A DNA stretch of 38,620 bases, taken from the NCBI GenBank assembly GCA_009885525.1, contig VFKN01000147.1, positions 1 through 38,620 on the forward strand, written 5' to 3'. Shown one piece after another: positions 8,333 through 36,105 of this stretch. Numbering within the stretch: the stretch's first letter is position 1; the number at the start of each line of letters is the position of its first letter. The translations under genes were made by a program, and so were the position numbers. Origin of the DNA: Anaerolineaceae bacterium. Lineage in GTDB: Bacteria; Chloroflexota; Anaerolineae; Anaerolineales; Villigracilaceae. Under the pieces are notes generated by a model, which worked only from the letters and a program-made list of their open reading frames with translations, had not been told where the DNA came from and did not search any database.

Positions 8333-8339
8333 ATCACGC

Positions 8340-8369
8340 GCAGTCCAAAGTCTCCTGACTTTGGACTGC
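8340..8369. repeat. Perfect 12-bp stem palindrome, 6-nt loop
   Basis: GCAGTCCAAAGT-CTCCTG-ACTTTGGACTGC, followed by the related GGAGTCTTTGGACTCC at 8384-8399. Confidence 0.8.
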
Positions 8370-8414
8370 ACCTCCAACGACGGGAGTCTTTGGACTCCGA
8401 ATTCAAAAAAATCA

Positions 8415-11937: not shown

Positions 11938-11995
11938 CTCTGGAGTACGGGAGCTTGTCCCCGCACTCTCGGACGGCAAGCCGTCCGATTCCAGA
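11938..11995. repeat. ~52-nt double-palindrome element, intergenic copy
   Basis: GGAGT-ACGGGAGCTTGTCCCCGCACTC-[TCGGACGGC-AA-GCCGTCCGA]-TTCCAGA; same layout as 34933-34985. Confidence 0.75.
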
Positions 11996-15897: not shown

Positions 15898-16734
15898 GTG
15901 CAAAACGAAATTCTTGAACATATTCGCCGCGCGCTGAATGAAGACATTGGCGCGGGCGATGCAACCTCCAACAGCATCATCCCCGCAGATGCGATGATGA
16001 ACGGCAAAATCATCGCCAAGCAAAACGGTGTCGTTGCGGGATTGGATGTCGCCCGCAAAGTTTTTCACCTGCTCGATGATTCGATTCAATTCGAATCTTT
16101 TGCCGCTGACGGAGAACGCGTCACAACTTCCACCGAAATCGTTCACCTGCGCGGATATGCCCGCCCGCTATTAACCGGCGAGCGCACCGCGCTGAATTAT
16201 CTCGGGCGCATGTCCGGCATCGCCACGCTGACGAGTCAATTCGTGGATGCAGTTGCTGACACACGCGCAAAAATTCTCGACACACGCAAAACCGCGCCGG
16301 GGCTGCGCACATTGGATAAACTCGCGGTGAAACTTGGCGGCGGAGAGAATCATCGCATCGGACTCTTCGACATGATCCTCATCAAAGATAATCATATTGA
16401 CTTCGCAGGCAGTATTGAGGAAGCGGTGCGGCGCGCGCGGGAGTATTCGAGCGGGCTGGAGATCGAGGTTGAGACCAGAAATCTCGAGGACGTTAAAGTC
16501 GCGCTGAATCTGGGAGTCGAAAGAATCCTTTTGGATAACATGTCAGTAGAGATGATGCGGCAGGCCGTTCAAATCACAAACGGACGCGCGAAACTTGAAG
16601 CCTCTGGAAATGTCTCGTTTGAAACCGTGCGCGCCATCGCCGAAACCGGCGTGGATTTTATTTCCATCGGCGCACTCACGCACTCGCCAAAGGTTTTTGA
16701 TTTTAGTTTGCAGTATGTTGTAGAACAGGCTTAA
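15898..16734 (+). CDS. nadC: Nicotinate-nucleotide pyrophosphorylase (quinolinate phosphoribosyltransferase); GTG start
   Basis: EDIGAGDATS, TRKTAPGLRTLDKLAVKLGGGENHRIGLFDMILIKDNH. Confidence 0.95.
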   Translation: MQNEILEHIRRALNEDIGAGDATSNSIIPADAMMNGKIIAKQNGVVAGLDVARKVFHLLDDSIQFESFAADGERVTTSTEIVHLRGYARPLLTGERTALNYLGRMSGIATLTSQFVDAVADTRAKILDTRKTAPGLRTLDKLAVKLGGGENHRIGLFDMILIKDNHIDFAGSIEEAVRRAREYSSGLEIEVETRNLEDVKVALNLGVERILLDNMSVEMMRQAVQITNGRAKLEASGNVSFETVRAIAETGVDFISIGALTHSPKVFDFSLQYVVEQA

Positions 16735-16747
16735 GCCTGTTCTACAA
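16718..16747. repeat. Perfect 30-bp palindrome spanning the nadC stop codon
   Basis: TTGTAGAACAGGCTT|AAGCCTGTTCTACAA. Confidence 0.9.
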
Positions 16748-21451: not shown

Positions 21452-21555
21452 ACACCTTCCACAAATCAGACCACGATGACGAATATGAATCACCCATTCG
21501 TAGACGGTCATTAACATCAAAAGGGACACAATATGACCGATCATTGTTTCATCTT

Positions 21556-23634
21556 ATGACCTCATCCCTCACCCCCTTCTTCAATCCTAGCGGCGTCGTC
21601 GTGATCGGCGCATCCACCTCACCGGAAAAACTTGGCTATGGTGTGGCGCGTAATTTGGTCGAAAGCAAATATCAGGGCGCGATCCATTTTGTGGGACAAA
21701 AAAACGGAACGCTCTTCGACCGCCCGATATACACAAGCCTCAATGAAGTTTCCGACCCCGTTGATCTTGCAATTCTGATTGTCCCAACCCAAGCCACACC
21801 TGAAACGATTGAAGCCTGCGGTCAGCGCGGAATTAAAGCCGTGACAATTGTCTCAGCCGGTTTTCGTGAAGTGGGCGCAGAAGGCGCGGCGCTCGAACAG
21901 CAATGCGTGGATGTTGCACGCAAATACGGCGTGCGTCTGCTCGGTCCTAATTGCATCGGCACGCTCGACACGCATCTGCCGCTTGATACAACTTTTCTCC
22001 AGCCGCCGATGCCCGCGCAAGGCAACATCGGTTTCATCTCGCATTCGGGCGCGTTCTGCGCCGCGATCATTGACTGGGCGCGCATGCAGGGTTTTGGATT
22101 TTCTCAAATTGTCAGTTTGGGAAATCAAGCCGATGTCAACGAAACCGATGTGCTGCCCGAAGTCGCAAATGACGCACACACCAACGTCATCGTCATGTAC
22201 ATGGAAGGCGTTTCGGATGGTCAGCGTTTTGTTAAGGTTGCGAGTGAGGTCACAAAACATAAGCCTGTCATTGCGCTAAAAGTCGGGCGTTTTGAAGCGG
22301 GACAAAAAGCGGCAGCATCGCATACCGGCGCGCTGGCTGGATCAGAATCCGCTTTTGATGCCGCCTTCGCCAAGAGTGGCATCCTGCGCGCAGACACCGC
22401 CGAGCAAATGTTTGATTGGGCGCGCGCGCTCGCGACTTGCGCGGAGCGGCCACCGAGCGGATCAAGCATGGCAATATTGACCAACGCTGGAGGTCCCGGC
22501 GTCATCGCCGCGGATGCGCTCGAAACGAACGGATTGCATCTTGCCGCGCTGAGTGACTCAACCCGCAAAGAACTCGCCGCCATCTTGCCCGCATCCGCAA
22601 GTGTGAACAACCCCGTGGATATGCTCGCCTCCGCTTCGCCAGATACATACGCAAATTGTTTAAAGATTTTGCTGCAAGATGAAAACGTCAACGGCGTGAT
22701 GGTCATTCTCCCGCCGCCGCCGATGTTCAAAACCGAAGAAGTGGCGGAGAAGATTATTGCAACTCTGTCGAACAGCAAGCTGTTCGACTCCAGAAAAAAA
22801 CCTGTTGTGATCGCATTGATGGGTTCAACTTTAATTGAAGAAGCACAAAAGACATTTCAATGGGCGAACATTCCAACATATCCATTTCCTGAACGGGCTG
22901 CATCCGCTTTGAGTGCGCTGGTGAAACGCGCAAAGTATTTAGACGATAGACCACAGACTATAGACCATATCGTCCATCGTCAATTGTCTATCGTCGGGCT
23001 TTCTCCTGATGAAATGGTTGCTGGTTATGGAATTCCAACCATTCCCATTCGCCTCGCACAAAATGAAGACGATGCAGTTGTAATTGCGAATGAACTTGGG
23101 TTTCCTGTTGTGATGAAGATCGCCTCGCCTGACATTTTGCATAAGTCAGATGTGGGCGGTGTGATATTGAATATCAATGATGTTGAATCACTCAAAAATA
23201 ATTATTTGCAAATGATGACGCACATTAAATCGGTAAAACCCGAAGCAAGAATCGAAGGCATGTATCTGCAACATCAAGTTGAGCAGGGACAGGAAGTGAT
23301 CGTGGGCATGGTGCGCGATCCGCTGTTTGGGGCGTTGATGATGTTCGGGTCGGGCGGAGTCGAGGTGGAAGGACTGCGGGACGTGGCGTTTTCACTCGCG
23401 CCGCTGAATCAGACCGAGGCGCGGGAAATGATCCGCGCGACTTGGGCGGGCAGAAAATTAAAGGGCTTTAGAAATATTCCGCCAGCGGATGAAGAATCGG
23501 CGGTGGACATCCTCATCAAATTATCATTACTTGCTTACGAGCATGAAGAAATCGAAGAGATCGAAATTAATCCATTGTGGGTGTTGAGCAAAGGCGCGGC
23601 GGCTGTGGATGTTCGGGTAAAATTGCGCGCATGA
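21556..23634 (+). CDS. ADP-forming acetate/acyl-CoA synthetase, fused alpha-beta
   Basis: N-terminal CoA-binding FFNPSGVVVIGASTSPEKLGYGV, GNIGFISHSGAF, SHTGALAGSE; C-terminal ATP-grasp GFPVVMKIASPDILHKSDVGGV. Confidence 0.88.
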   Translation: MTSSLTPFFNPSGVVVIGASTSPEKLGYGVARNLVESKYQGAIHFVGQKNGTLFDRPIYTSLNEVSDPVDLAILIVPTQATPETIEACGQRGIKAVTIVSAGFREVGAEGAALEQQCVDVARKYGVRLLGPNCIGTLDTHLPLDTTFLQPPMPAQGNIGFISHSGAFCAAIIDWARMQGFGFSQIVSLGNQADVNETDVLPEVANDAHTNVIVMYMEGVSDGQRFVKVASEVTKHKPVIALKVGRFEAGQKAAASHTGALAGSESAFDAAFAKSGILRADTAEQMFDWARALATCAERPPSGSSMAILTNAGGPGVIAADALETNGLHLAALSDSTRKELAAILPASASVNNPVDMLASASPDTYANCLKILLQDENVNGVMVILPPPPMFKTEEVAEKIIATLSNSKLFDSRKKPVVIALMGSTLIEEAQKTFQWANIPTYPFPERAASALSALVKRAKYLDDRPQTIDHIVHRQLSIVGLSPDEMVAGYGIPTIPIRLAQNEDDAVVIANELGFPVVMKIASPDILHKSDVGGVILNINDVESLKNNYLQMMTHIKSVKPEARIEGMYLQHQVEQGQEVIVGMVRDPLFGALMMFGSGGVEVEGLRDVAFSLAPLNQTEAREMIRATWAGRKLKGFRNIPPADEESAVDILIKLSLLAYEHEEIEEIEINPLWVLSKGAAAVDVRVKLRA
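22768..22794. repeat. In-frame palindrome (9-bp stem, AA loop) + CTCCAGA inside the acyl-CoA synthetase gene
   Basis: TCGAACAGC-AA-GCTGTTCGA-CTCCAGA. Confidence 0.75.
22942..22995. repeat. In-frame inverted repeat at the alpha-beta junction of the acyl-CoA synthetase gene
   Basis: GACGATAGAC ... GTCTATCGTC with internal degenerate ATAGACC / CGTC units. Confidence 0.65.
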
Positions 23635-26480: not shown

Positions 26481-26553
26481 GTAATTGGTAAATAGTAATT
26501 AAGGATTGGAAGTTAGTCAATTACCAATTACCAATTACCAATCTCTAATTACC
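26481..26553. repeat. Inverted heptamer arrays (GGTAATT / AATTACC)
   Basis: GTAATTGGTAA...TTACCAATTACCAATTACCAATCTCTAATTACC. Confidence 0.8.
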
Positions 26554-27711
26554 TTCAATACCTTGTTTCGTTTTCTCTTTCCCCCGTGACCTCATCACAT
26601 CCAGCACGCGCGGCATGATATCGGTGTAGAGTTTATACCAAAGTTTATTTGGAGCAAAATCATACGCGCCGAGCGTGCGGATCACTTCTCCACTCAAGCC
26701 TTCTTTAAAGCGATACACGCCCCACATTGAATCGCTTTCATCGAAGACATCGGGCGCGCCCCAAAGATCGTAGGCGGCACAACCATTTGCTTTGGCGCGT
26801 TTGATCGCATCCCATTGCAAAAGATAGGTGGGCATTTTTTCACGGTGCGCGTTGCGCGACATACCGTAAACGTAATAGGCGCGTCCGGCGAACATGAAGA
26901 GGAAAATGGCGGCGACGGGTTCGCCATCCACTTCAGCAATGAGAGGAATAGCCGAGGGTAATTGGTAATTGGTAATTAGGGATTGAGGATTGGGCGCGAA
27001 GGTTTTCCACACTGTCATATAATAATTTTCGTCGCGGATAACAAAGCCGTCACGAACGGAAGTCTCCGCGTACATTTTGTACAGCGCGGGTAAATCTTCG
27101 AGCGTCCCCACGCGCACGGTGACGCCCTTCTTTTCCGCCAGGCGGATGTTGTAGCGCGTCTTCGATTTCATGCGCATGATCATTTCTTCTTCGGTGGCGG
27201 AAAGATTGATGAGGACGGTGTTTTTGAATTGAATCTGCTCAGATGAAAATTTCCATCCGCGGCGATCAAGTTCTCCAAGCACTGCATGGCGCGGACTTAA
27301 GTCCGCGTTACTTTCAGGCACACCGCGCCCCAGCACAACATCCGGATCAATTTTCAAAAAGATCGCGCCTTGTTTTTTAGCGAAGGATTGCAGGTCGTTC
27401 AGCACACGCGTCCGCAGGAATTCATTAGACCAATCCAGCAGCGGACCTTTGGGACTGTATAAAATGCACAAACGCGCGACAAGTCCGCGGCTGAGGATTT
27501 GACGTTTCAAGATCAAAGCAGACGCAACGATTGGAGAGTGGAAAGTGGAAAGTGATTCTATATTACTTTCCACTTTCCACTTTCCATCCTCCGTCCAGAC
27601 AGCATAATACGGAATCCAACCATACTTCGCCTTGACCTGTCCCCACTCATAGGTTTGCAGGAAGTGCGGGCTGGGAAGTTTCGAAATTAATTCATTCCAT
27701 AAATTAGACAT
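26545..27711 (-). CDS. FemAB/FemX-type aminoacyltransferase (peptidoglycan bridge family), copy 1
   Basis: FLQTYEWGQVKAKYGW, MKSKTRYNIRLAEKKGVTVR, YVYGMSRNAHREKMPTYLLQWDAIKRAKANGCAAYDLWGAPD. Confidence 0.9.
   Translation of the reverse strand: MSNLWNELISKLPSPHFLQTYEWGQVKAKYGWIPYYAVWTEDGKWKVESNIESLSTFHSPIVASALILKRQILSRGLVARLCILYSPKGPLLDWSNEFLRTRVLNDLQSFAKKQGAIFLKIDPDVVLGRGVPESNADLSPRHAVLGELDRRGWKFSSEQIQFKNTVLINLSATEEEMIMRMKSKTRYNIRLAEKKGVTVRVGTLEDLPALYKMYAETSVRDGFVIRDENYYMTVWKTFAPNPQSLITNYQLPSAIPLIAEVDGEPVAAIFLFMFAGRAYYVYGMSRNAHREKMPTYLLQWDAIKRAKANGCAAYDLWGAPDVFDESDSMWGVYRFKEGLSGEVIRTLGAYDFAPNKLWYKLYTDIMPRVLDVMRSRGKEKTKQGIEGN
26957..26991. repeat. Heptamer array inside FemX copy 1
   Basis: GGTAATT GGTAATT GGTAATT AGGGATT GAGGATT (exact 7-nt phasing). 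Confidence 0.85.
27290..27307. repeat. Perfect 18-bp TTAA-centred palindrome inside FemX copy 1
   Basis: CGCGGACTTAAGTCCGCG. Confidence 0.8.
27537..27581. repeat. 17-bp-arm inverted heptamer repeat inside FemX copy 1
   Basis: AGTGGAAAGTGGAAAGT-N11-ACTTTCCACTTTCCACT. Confidence 0.9.
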
Positions 27712-27713
27712 GA

Positions 27714-28229
27714 TTACTGAAGGTCTCTCTGCCGGGCTGCCAATATCCACTCAGCAATGACTTGGTCATGACCGCCTTTTGTAAGATAAGACGGAACATC
27801 TTTCCATGCAAAATATTGCGCAGCGCTGGATTCATTATTAATGCGCAGCTCGCCTGAAATGGATTTTGCCTTATATACGAACGTGACGCCATTTCCGCGC
27901 GGGTCATCTGAAAAATAATAAACTTGAAAAAACTCAATGTCATCCACTACAAGATTGGTCTCTTCGAAAACTTCACGTCTTGCCGCGTCCATCGGGTTTT
28001 CATCTGCTTCGACATAACCCGCAGGCAGCATCCAACTTCCCTTCCACGGTTCGTAGCTTCTTTGTAGAAGCAATAGTTTATTATCATTTTCTATAACGAC
28101 AGCCGCGCCTACTTTTAATTGAGCATAGTACACCCAGCCGCAAACCGTACAAACTTCACGCTCACGCTGATCGAGGTGTTTAATTTCAAGTACCTGCCCG
28201 CATTGAAAACAATAATGTGAGTTCATCAT
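27714..28229 (-). CDS. Nudix hydrolase with N-terminal zinc ribbon
   Basis: CFQCGQVLE...CTVCGW; GYVEADENPMDAARREVFEETNLVV (Nudix box). Confidence 0.9.
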   Translation of the reverse strand: MMNSHYCFQCGQVLEIKHLDQREREVCTVCGWVYYAQLKVGAAVVIENDNKLLLLQRSYEPWKGSWMLPAGYVEADENPMDAARREVFEETNLVVDDIEFFQVYYFSDDPRGNGVTFVYKAKSISGELRINNESSAAQYFAWKDVPSYLTKGGHDQVIAEWILAARQRDLQ

Positions 28230-34677: not shown

Positions 34678-36105
34678 TTAAAGGTGACTGTTATTTTTAT
34701 TATAAGGGAAAAACACCTCAAAAGTTGTCCCCTCGCCTAACTTGCTGCGGACGCTAATTCTGCCGCCGTGCGCCTGCACAATTTCGTGCGCAATGGCAAG
34801 TCCCAGCCCCGCGCCGTGTTTCTCTCCGCCTTTGCGGGCAGGGTCGGCTTGATAGAAGCGGTCAAAGATGTGCGCCTGCGCCTCGGGTGAAATCCCCGCG
34901 CCGGTGTCTGTAACGGAGATGAGCATAATTTTGGAGTCCATCAGTTTACTGATGGACTTGTCAGGCAGCAAGCTGCCTGACTCCAGAGTTTGAGCGCGAA
35001 GCGTAATCAAACCGCCGTTAGGAGTGAACTTGAGCGCGTTGTCCACCAGGTTGGTGAAGACTTGCGCGAGACGGTCACCATCGGCGGTGAGTTTCGGCAG
35101 GTTTGAATCTGCGTCCACTTTGATTTGCACGCCCGCTTTTTGCGATTGCGGGGTGAACTTTTCAGCGATCACATTTAACAACGCGGGGATTTGCACCGAA
35201 GACATTGTAATATCCGCTGTGCCGGCGTCGAGTTTGGCGAGGTCGAGCAGATCGAGCACCATGCGATGCATGCGCGCGGACTCGTCGTAGATGACTTGCG
35301 CGGCTTGCTGGCGCGCTGCGTCTGTATCCGCGGTGCTGTCCAAAATCGCTTGCGCGAATCCTTGAATGGAGGTGAGCGGCGTTTTCAATTCGTGCGAGAC
35401 ATTCGCGACAAACTCCCGCTGTGATTTTTGACTCGCCTGCGCGCGCGCGACCATCGAGTTAAAAGCGCGCGTCAATTCTTTGACCTCGTGCGGACCTTGC
35501 GCGCCGATAAGTTTTTCCTCCACCGCTAAATTTTCACGTGCGGCAGCGACAACTTTTTGCAGCGGGTCTGCGATCCAGCGCGCGACGAAGAAGGCGACCA
35601 CAAGCGAGAGCAGCAGCGCGACAACTCCGCTTTGCAGGATGATGGGCAGGAAATCATCGGTAAAAATATTTGCGATGGAAATACGCGGACGTGGCGAAGC
35701 GACCAGGAGGTAAGTCTTGTCCGGAAGTTTTTGAAGCGAGTATAGCCACGTCACGCCGCTTTCATCACGCACAAACGGAATGCGCGCAAAGAATCTTTTT
35801 TGCGGGAACGGCAGCGCGGACTGTTTACCCGATTGTGTATCGAAAATGACTTGTCCATCTTTTGTATACAACAATACGCGGACATCAAATGTACGCGTGG
35901 CATTTTCGGCAACCACTGAAATCGACTGCGAGCCATTACCTGTCATCACAACCGATTCAACGGCTTTCAGGCGTTGAATGGTTTGACGATACAACAATGG
36001 ATTACGTAAAAGATATATAAATAGAACCAGCGCCACAATGCTTAACGCTGTGGTGATGACAAGGGCGTAACTTAACCAGAGACGGGAACGGAGGGAGGTG
36101 AACAT
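34678..36105 (-). CDS. Sensor histidine kinase (HAMP-HisKA-HATPase)
   Basis: FVANVSHELKTPLTSIQGFAQAI; NLVDNALKFTPNGG; DTGAGISPEAQAHIFDRFYQ; GAGLGLAIAHEIVQAHGG. Confidence 0.95.
   Translation of the reverse strand: MFTSLRSRLWLSYALVITTALSIVALVLFIYLLRNPLLYRQTIQRLKAVESVVMTGNGSQSISVVAENATRTFDVRVLLYTKDGQVIFDTQSGKQSALPFPQKRFFARIPFVRDESGVTWLYSLQKLPDKTYLLVASPRPRISIANIFTDDFLPIILQSGVVALLLSLVVAFFVARWIADPLQKVVAAARENLAVEEKLIGAQGPHEVKELTRAFNSMVARAQASQKSQREFVANVSHELKTPLTSIQGFAQAILDSTADTDAARQQAAQVIYDESARMHRMVLDLLDLAKLDAGTADITMSSVQIPALLNVIAEKFTPQSQKAGVQIKVDADSNLPKLTADGDRLAQVFTNLVDNALKFTPNGGLITLRAQTLESGSLLPDKSISKLMDSKIMLISVTDTGAGISPEAQAHIFDRFYQADPARKGGEKHGAGLGLAIAHEIVQAHGGRISVRSKLGEGTTFEVFFPYNKNNSHL
34933..34985. 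repeat. ~52-nt double-palindrome element inserted in-frame in the HATPase domain
   Basis: GGAGT-[CCATCAGT-TT-ACTGATGG]-ACTTG-[TCAGGCAGC-AA-GCTGCCTGA]-CTCCAG. Confidence 0.85.

Follow-up and report, generated by a model that had tools for sequence, protein, structure and literature searches.

A putative GGAG-headed REPIN family with in-frame copies inside genes and hairpin turnover at orthologous sites in Anaerolineales

Introduction

REPINs, RAYTs (REP-associated tyrosine transposases), stem covariation and intragenic REPs are known ground. REPs are defined by a 5' GT(A/G)G tetranucleotide (PMC3686654, PMC6006769), complementary stem changes between REP copies are known (PMC2817692, PMC3116915), and so are heterodimers and intragenic REPs (PMC3733652). 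In Escherichia coli TnpAREP, H101 and R104 contact the guide (PMC6006769). In a guide model derived from experiment, A3 and G4 of the tetranucleotide select the CT cut site, and in one system stem substitutions are modest in effect whereas a mid-stem mismatch nearly abolishes cleavage (PMC8266576).

The elements described here share with the REPs and REPINs of RAYTs (PMC2817692, PMC3116915, PMC3686654) a short hairpin with a 5' tetranucleotide, head-out dimers, inverted copies flanking a RAYT gene and complementary stem changes among copies. They differ in having a GGAG head (GGAC in relatives) instead of GT(A/G)G, in lying within genes at ~30% of their sites, and in the hairpin turnover seen at fixed orthologous sites. 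With intragenic GTAG/CGTC REPs and Rickettsia palindromic elements (Di Nocera 2013, PMC3733652) they have in common that in-frame palindromes add 10-30 residues to unrelated proteins; they differ from these in the head, in having their own RAYT, and in that the same protein sites are kept or used again in different species while the hairpins there have changed.

Results

Repeat units in the window

The window, 38,620 nucleotides in full, is contig C64 of an Anaerolineales MAG (draft genome of 4.10 Mb in 206 contigs). A first-pass annotation had read three related palindromic sequences, starting at 34933, 11942 and 22768, and all three are found as it read them. The features are as follows.

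34930..34987, no strand assigned: whole putative REPIN dimer, two head-out units, in frame within the histidine kinase gene
34933..34956, + strand: left unit of the kinase dimer, GGAG head at 34933-34936, 44.4 bits to model R1
34937-34956: hairpin of the kinase left unit, TCCATCAGT-TT-ACTGATGGA
34961..34984, - strand: right unit of the kinase dimer, 50.5 bits to model R1
34961-34980: hairpin of the kinase right unit, TCAGGCAGC-AA-GCTGCCTGA, head CTCC at 34981-34984 (GGAG on the - strand)
11940..11995, no strand assigned: intergenic putative REPIN dimer, units of 16.7 and 43.8 bits
11969-11988: right hairpin of the intergenic dimer, TCGGACGGC-AA-GCCGTCCGA, head GGAA (TTCC at 11989-11992)
22768..22794, - strand: single unit, in frame in the acyl-CoA synthetase gene, 48.2 bits
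22768-22787: hairpin of this unit, TCGAACAGC-AA-GCTGTTCGA, head CTCC at 22788-22791, antisense
34678..36105, - strand: sensor histidine kinase gene, insert at ~residues 372-392, within HATPase_c (342-468)
21544..23634, + strand: acyl-CoA synthetase gene (CoA-binding, Succ_CoA_lig, ATP-grasp_5)

Read head-first, a typical unit consists of A(A/T)(C/T)TCT-GGAG-T and a 9-bp hairpin tipped GCTTGC, and the double element is two such units placed head-out. The tip, previously given as GC-AA-GC, reads GC-TT-GC in the head-first orientation. An inverted-repeat scan of the window recovers the two kinase hairpins, the right intergenic hairpin and the single acyl-CoA synthetase hairpin; the perfect arms of the window copies are 9-11 bp. 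The intergenic copy has its left GGAG head at 11942, and its left hairpin is imperfect and weak (16.7 bits with the family model). As single-stranded DNA, the kinase element is predicted to fold into two hairpins at -19.3 kcal/mol (z = -6.1). An Rfam search of the window gave no match.

Three other palindromes in the window should be noted. The one at 8335-8400 (GCAGTCCAAAGTCTCCTGACTTTGGACTGC, then GGGAGTCTTTGGACTCC) overlaps the 5' end of a dnaB-like ORF and resembles another GGAG-headed family, with AAGTCTCC tips, that flanks the RAYTs L098 and L099. A GTAG-headed palindrome (GTAGAACAGGCTTAAGCCTGTTCTAC) at 16718-16747, between nadC-like and nadA-like genes, resembles the GTAG REPs flanking the RAYTs L046 and L047, and the palindrome CGCGGACTTAAGTCCGCG at 27290-27307, within ORF 26545-27750, resembles the GCGGACT family flanking the RAYT L042.

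Genome-wide copies and stem covariation

Copies were collected by pattern, covariance model and regional sequence. The covariance model gives ~54 units above 24 bits, at 34 sites, in the genome of the window. A pattern of tip and end with a 7-nt spacer has 36 matches in the genome against none for the reversed control, and a dimer pattern finds eight dimers, again against none. Pattern matches on C3, C36, C43, C51, C106, C116 and C148, having no paired stem, were discarded as chance. A match on C97, in a GT1 glycosyltransferase, was rejected as well, its stem being broken and its peptide ('LLESARLLTDK') being what we take to be typical of that family.

The stems vary and remain paired. In 36 copies picked by head and tip alone, with pairing not a criterion, 155 of 180 mid-stem positions are Watson-Crick pairs, as compared with a mean of 94 and a maximum of 113 when the arms are dealt at random. 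In an alignment of 42 units, 98.1% of the stem cells are paired, and eight of the nine pairs have changed on both sides, with 82 compensatory cells; the arm shuffling of the 36 copies is the unbiased test, since the 42 units were partly picked on pairing. The covariation between conserved ends that the first-pass annotation had noted is strong in both the alignment and the shuffled-arm test. It need not reflect selection on the structure site by site, as the annotation's first suggestion would have it, since orthologous sites show stems that have been replaced or homogenised, and some copies within genes are decaying. The other suggestion of the first-pass annotation, a mechanism dependent on hairpin structure, is supported by the extra copies, the covariation, the empty kinase sites and a RAYT with flanking dimers. 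Nor is the element confined to the window, as the ~54 units attest, and the kinase segment is not a piece of protein conserved in relatives without the palindromes, being missing from most orthologs.

A RAYT flanked by the same dimers

The genome contains nine Y1-transposase genes. The first-pass annotation had suggested looking for a RAYT in this genome, and L044 (contig C157, 182 aa) carries dimers of the family directly upstream and directly downstream. L044 scores 101 bits against NF047646 (REP-associated tyrosine transposase, cut-off 80) and 24 bits against the IS200 family NF033573, below its cut-off of 55, and an IS200/IS605 insertion sequence with an IS200-type TnpA was rejected on this score. 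The best solved relative is TnpAREP 4er8 (E 2e-8), whose sequence was used solely over the stretch given by the solved-structure match. The orthologs L084-L092 are likewise flanked by repeats on both sides. The arrangement is that of a REPtron, with repeats on both sides of a transposase of the REP-associated Y1 family, and the double element has the form of a REPIN, with two inverted head-out units and a short spacer. As for the high copy number and extragenic position of REPINs, there are ~54 units, and roughly 10 of the 34 sites are intragenic.

Copy number tracks RAYT presence among 57 congeners (Fisher p = 4e-4). Copies number 27-57 in the six genomes, that of the window included, whose RAYT is at least 77% identical, and 0-4 in 37 of the 40 genomes without a RAYT relative of at least ~50% identity. 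The exceptions are G003, G009 and G045, in which 15-48 copies were counted but a close RAYT was not found; the completeness of G003 is only 77%. Since the dimers flank the RAYT and copy number follows it, the elements appear to work as a REPIN/RAYT system. Judging from these sequence data, the element is very probably a REPIN, the non-autonomous mobile element of a RAYT, with the mechanism set out in the Discussion, and the 182-aa RAYT on C157 is the likely autonomous source of the dimers.

At least five more Y1 transposases of this genome (L042, L043, L045, L046 and L047) have nearby hairpins of different families, most of them GTAG-headed, so several REP/RAYT families coexist there.

The GGAG/GGAC guide

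The units lack GT(A/G)G at the hairpin foot, the mark of canonical REPs. GGA is invariant (42/42 units), GGAG is present in 39/42, and the CT directly before it is conserved (C 38/42, T 42/42). An alignment of these RAYTs was used to scan 85,462 species genomes, and the scan of flanking heads covered GG- and GT-type heads. Relatives occur in several phyla, among them Verrucomicrobiota, Acidobacteriota, Armatimonadota, Omnitrophota and Planctomycetota. Where flanking hairpins can be recognised, the heads of most nearer relatives are GGAGT or GGACT, whereas those of more distant ones (Cyanobacteria, other Chloroflexota) are GTAGT. On a maximum-likelihood tree of 66 RAYTs the head label changes three times, against 15.5 with shuffled labels, and the GGAG/GGAC-headed RAYTs of several phyla split almost cleanly from the GTAG-headed ones. 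Within the genus, the hairpin tip tracks the RAYT clade (GCTTGC, AAGTNNTACTT-like, AAGTCTCC-GACTT and GACTTCAGTC).

Two entries of the survey should be mentioned. L179, from a Verrucomicrobiaceae MAG, is a GTAG-headed RAYT that falls within the GGAG/GGAC clade and may represent a guide reversion. L174 (DYDH01000001.1), in a MAG that bears the public label Herpetosiphon sp., is identical to the RAYT of G039, which belongs to the window's genus; this label is probably wrong.

The nearest described subclass, and sister group in the tree, is TnpAREP subclass 2.8 (Quentin 2018, PMC6006769), which shares the HYH motif, W[YH], a YIHYNP-like motif and a proline-rich N terminus. The REPs of subclass 2.8 are canonical GT(A/G)G, sampled only in Cyanobacteria, whereas the clade here is GGAG/GGAC-headed. 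The positions aligned with H101 and R104 are mostly Thr and Thr in GG-headed RAYTs and mostly Arg and Arg in GTAG-headed relatives, a contrast that is confounded with phylogeny and that L179, L104 and L105 fit poorly.

In terms of the guide model (PMC8266576), GGAG retains A3 and G4 with the conserved CT just before it, where the cut would be placed. The mismatch and substitution results of the same study fit a free stem sequence with obligatory pairing. An attractive conjecture is that GGAG is favoured over GTAG since it lacks the TAG stop. A partial literature search, which leaves priority unsettled, found no description of a GGAG/GGAC guide class with its own RAYT clade; REP searches rely on GT(A/G)G and would therefore miss such a class.

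Insertions inside genes

In an alignment of 28 kinase orthologs, most show only a short turn at the place of the ~20 extra residues in the window, so that the loci without the element sought by the first-pass annotation do exist. Eroded inserts are present at the same spot in G045 and G051, and a possible one in G040. The acyl-CoA synthetase site is vacant in most species and holds family elements in G000, G013, G031, G052 and G034. In G054 and G050 (orthologs L148 and L154) this position is occupied by other, unrelated palindromes, suggesting that it is a shared tolerant spot or a palindrome hotspot.

About 10 of the 34 sites in the genome (~30%) lie in genuine genes, all of them open and in frame. 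The hosts are the kinase, biotin carboxylase, acyl-CoA synthetase, an FMN oxidoreductase, a P-type ATPase, a DUF2298 protein, two family-2 glycosyltransferases (with the element at the homologous loop in both), a protein with an ortholog that carries a helicase C-terminal domain, and one protein without annotation. In this count C203a is treated as probably upstream of the true start, and C170 and C100 as not clearly intragenic. Seven of the eight heads read in sense use the frame CTG-GAG-TC (L-E-S), which is also the commonest in four congeners (24/46, a count including some chance matches), and the peptide inserted is mostly L-E-S-x-(S/G)-L-(L/P)-x-D. Exact insertion boundaries and target-site sequence were not readable at the orthologous sites, where the flanks are too diverged.

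Turnover of hairpins at fixed sites

In a flank-anchored comparison, the ends stay in place at several orthologous sites and the hairpins differ yet pair. Such sites lie in alanyl-tRNA synthetase (AlaRS; three species), DUF2298 (three species) and biotin carboxylase (two species); some other sites are unchanged, e.g. L342/L320. The sister pairs G031/G052 and G001/G054 are ~90% identical in nucleotides at the kinase locus. Thirty-two orthologous unit pairs, matched by similarity and in part not independent of one another, contain 12 double complementary changes, one double non-complementary change and 32 one-sided changes, where independent mutation is estimated to give roughly one double change overall.

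The loops of 200 units selected by head and arms are TT (164), AA (18), TC (13), TG (2), GA (2) and CT (1), with TA and AT at zero. The lack of TA and AT beside the presence of AA (9%) is as predicted by reverse-complement flips. Selection against self-complementary loops is also possible, and five of the 18 units with AA carry two heads, so that deletion between units may have produced them instead. At one orthologous site (L087 vs L084) the loop is flipped and the spacer conserved.

Whole dimers also appear to have been inverted. Between L357 and L394 in AlaRS, the units match at 19/20 and 19/20 positions when inverted, as compared with 14 and 14 in direct orientation, and between L330 and L377 the inverted dimer has a rare GGAAC stem and keeps its own spacer. 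The inversion is convincing at these two sites and suggestive at a third. A crude global-alignment score of dimer inversion does not exceed its 95% null, since common stems turn up repeatedly and the cores were cut unevenly at their boundaries; we therefore claim inversion at two sites only, from unit identity, shared spacer and rare stem.

Polymerase template switching is known to leave arm homogenisation and spacer inversion as its signatures (PMC8604942, PMC8794818), and the sites here share with template-switch mutation at inverted repeats arm homogenisation, compensatory clusters and loop or spacer inversion. The pattern resembles template switching or exchange between copies, copy exchange being an equally possible contributor where both hairpins changed. 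In a partial literature search, which leaves priority unsettled, we found no paper linking extragenic palindromes (REPs) to template switching and no earlier description of orthologous-site turnover with flips.

Discussion

From the copies, covariation, RAYT association, empty sites, co-segregation of head and RAYT, and turnover at fixed sites, we infer how the DNA would be recognised and cut and how template switching would act. On single-stranded DNA, the RAYT probably recognises the 5' GGAG tetranucleotide and the paired, GCTTGC-tipped hairpin; its cut would probably fall at the conserved CT immediately 5' of GGAG. The identity of the middle stem pairs would be free, the pairing itself being what matters. 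Copies would insert between and within genes, and in-gene ones would persist where they encode an open in-frame peptide at a tolerant position. Once placed, the hairpins would be reshaped by arm homogenisation, loop flips, dimer inversion and replacement, most simply through template switching in replication and exchange between copies; this reshaping would explain why stems differ among copies yet remain self-complementary.

Each copy might instead be selected for the host as an RNA or DNA structure (a transcript stabiliser, terminator or protein-binding site) with the RAYT incidental, as the many different, perfectly paired stems, the mostly intergenic sites and reports of REPs that bind host proteins or affect mRNA elsewhere (PMC2817692, PMC3733652) could suggest. 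The sites, however, are spread over unrelated genes and missing from most congeners, in-gene orthologous copies decay or vanish, the Rfam search of the window was blank, and the RAYT has dimers on both flanks, all of which makes this explanation improbable. Elements of the Rickettsia type (RPE, CGTC class), which spread in genes without a dedicated transposase, would account for open-frame intragenic insertion like that in R. conorii (PMC3733652), but the units here carry GGAG where that class has CGTC, and the same dimers stand on both sides of a RAYT, whereas CGTC repeats reportedly have no dedicated transposase; we rejected this assignment and regard it as very improbable indeed.

If the elements are REPINs, the changed stems may have come from replacement by other copies, through gene conversion or RAYT-driven re-insertion at the same site, and not from template switching within the hairpin. 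Both hairpins differ together at L330/L354 and L335/L383, new stems (e.g. CAAAC) are frequent at other places in those genomes, and several species hold elements at identical protein positions. The flip of the loop alone beside an identical spacer in L087 vs L084, the absence of TA and AT loops from 200 units with AA at 9%, and the inverted dimers of L330/L377 that retain their own spacer and rare stem speak against replacement, and we consider it the less probable source, though one to be taken seriously.

Within the REPIN reading, we tentatively propose, at rather less than even confidence, that REPIN sites are long-lived docking sites, often in genes, in genomes having a RAYT clade with the guide re-coded to GGAG/GGAC, and that the swapping, flipping and re-pairing of hairpin cassettes at these sites outpaces the divergence of the flanks. 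If so, turnover of cassettes in place would contribute to the evolution of the population as much as new insertion does, and a short peptide would be rewritten in host proteins such as AlaRS, a histidine kinase and biotin carboxylase. The orthologous sites with changed hairpins show protein segments rewritten in frame, repeatedly, by what is very probably a mobile element. GT(A/G)G has been treated as the defining constant of REPs, from which the GGAG/GGAC class departs, and its RAYT clade in Chloroflexota, Verrucomicrobiota, Acidobacteriota, Armatimonadota, Omnitrophota and others offers natural pairs for studying guide reading and cut-site choice. With conserved ends around differing, paired hairpins, the old question of REP stem complementarity becomes directly testable.
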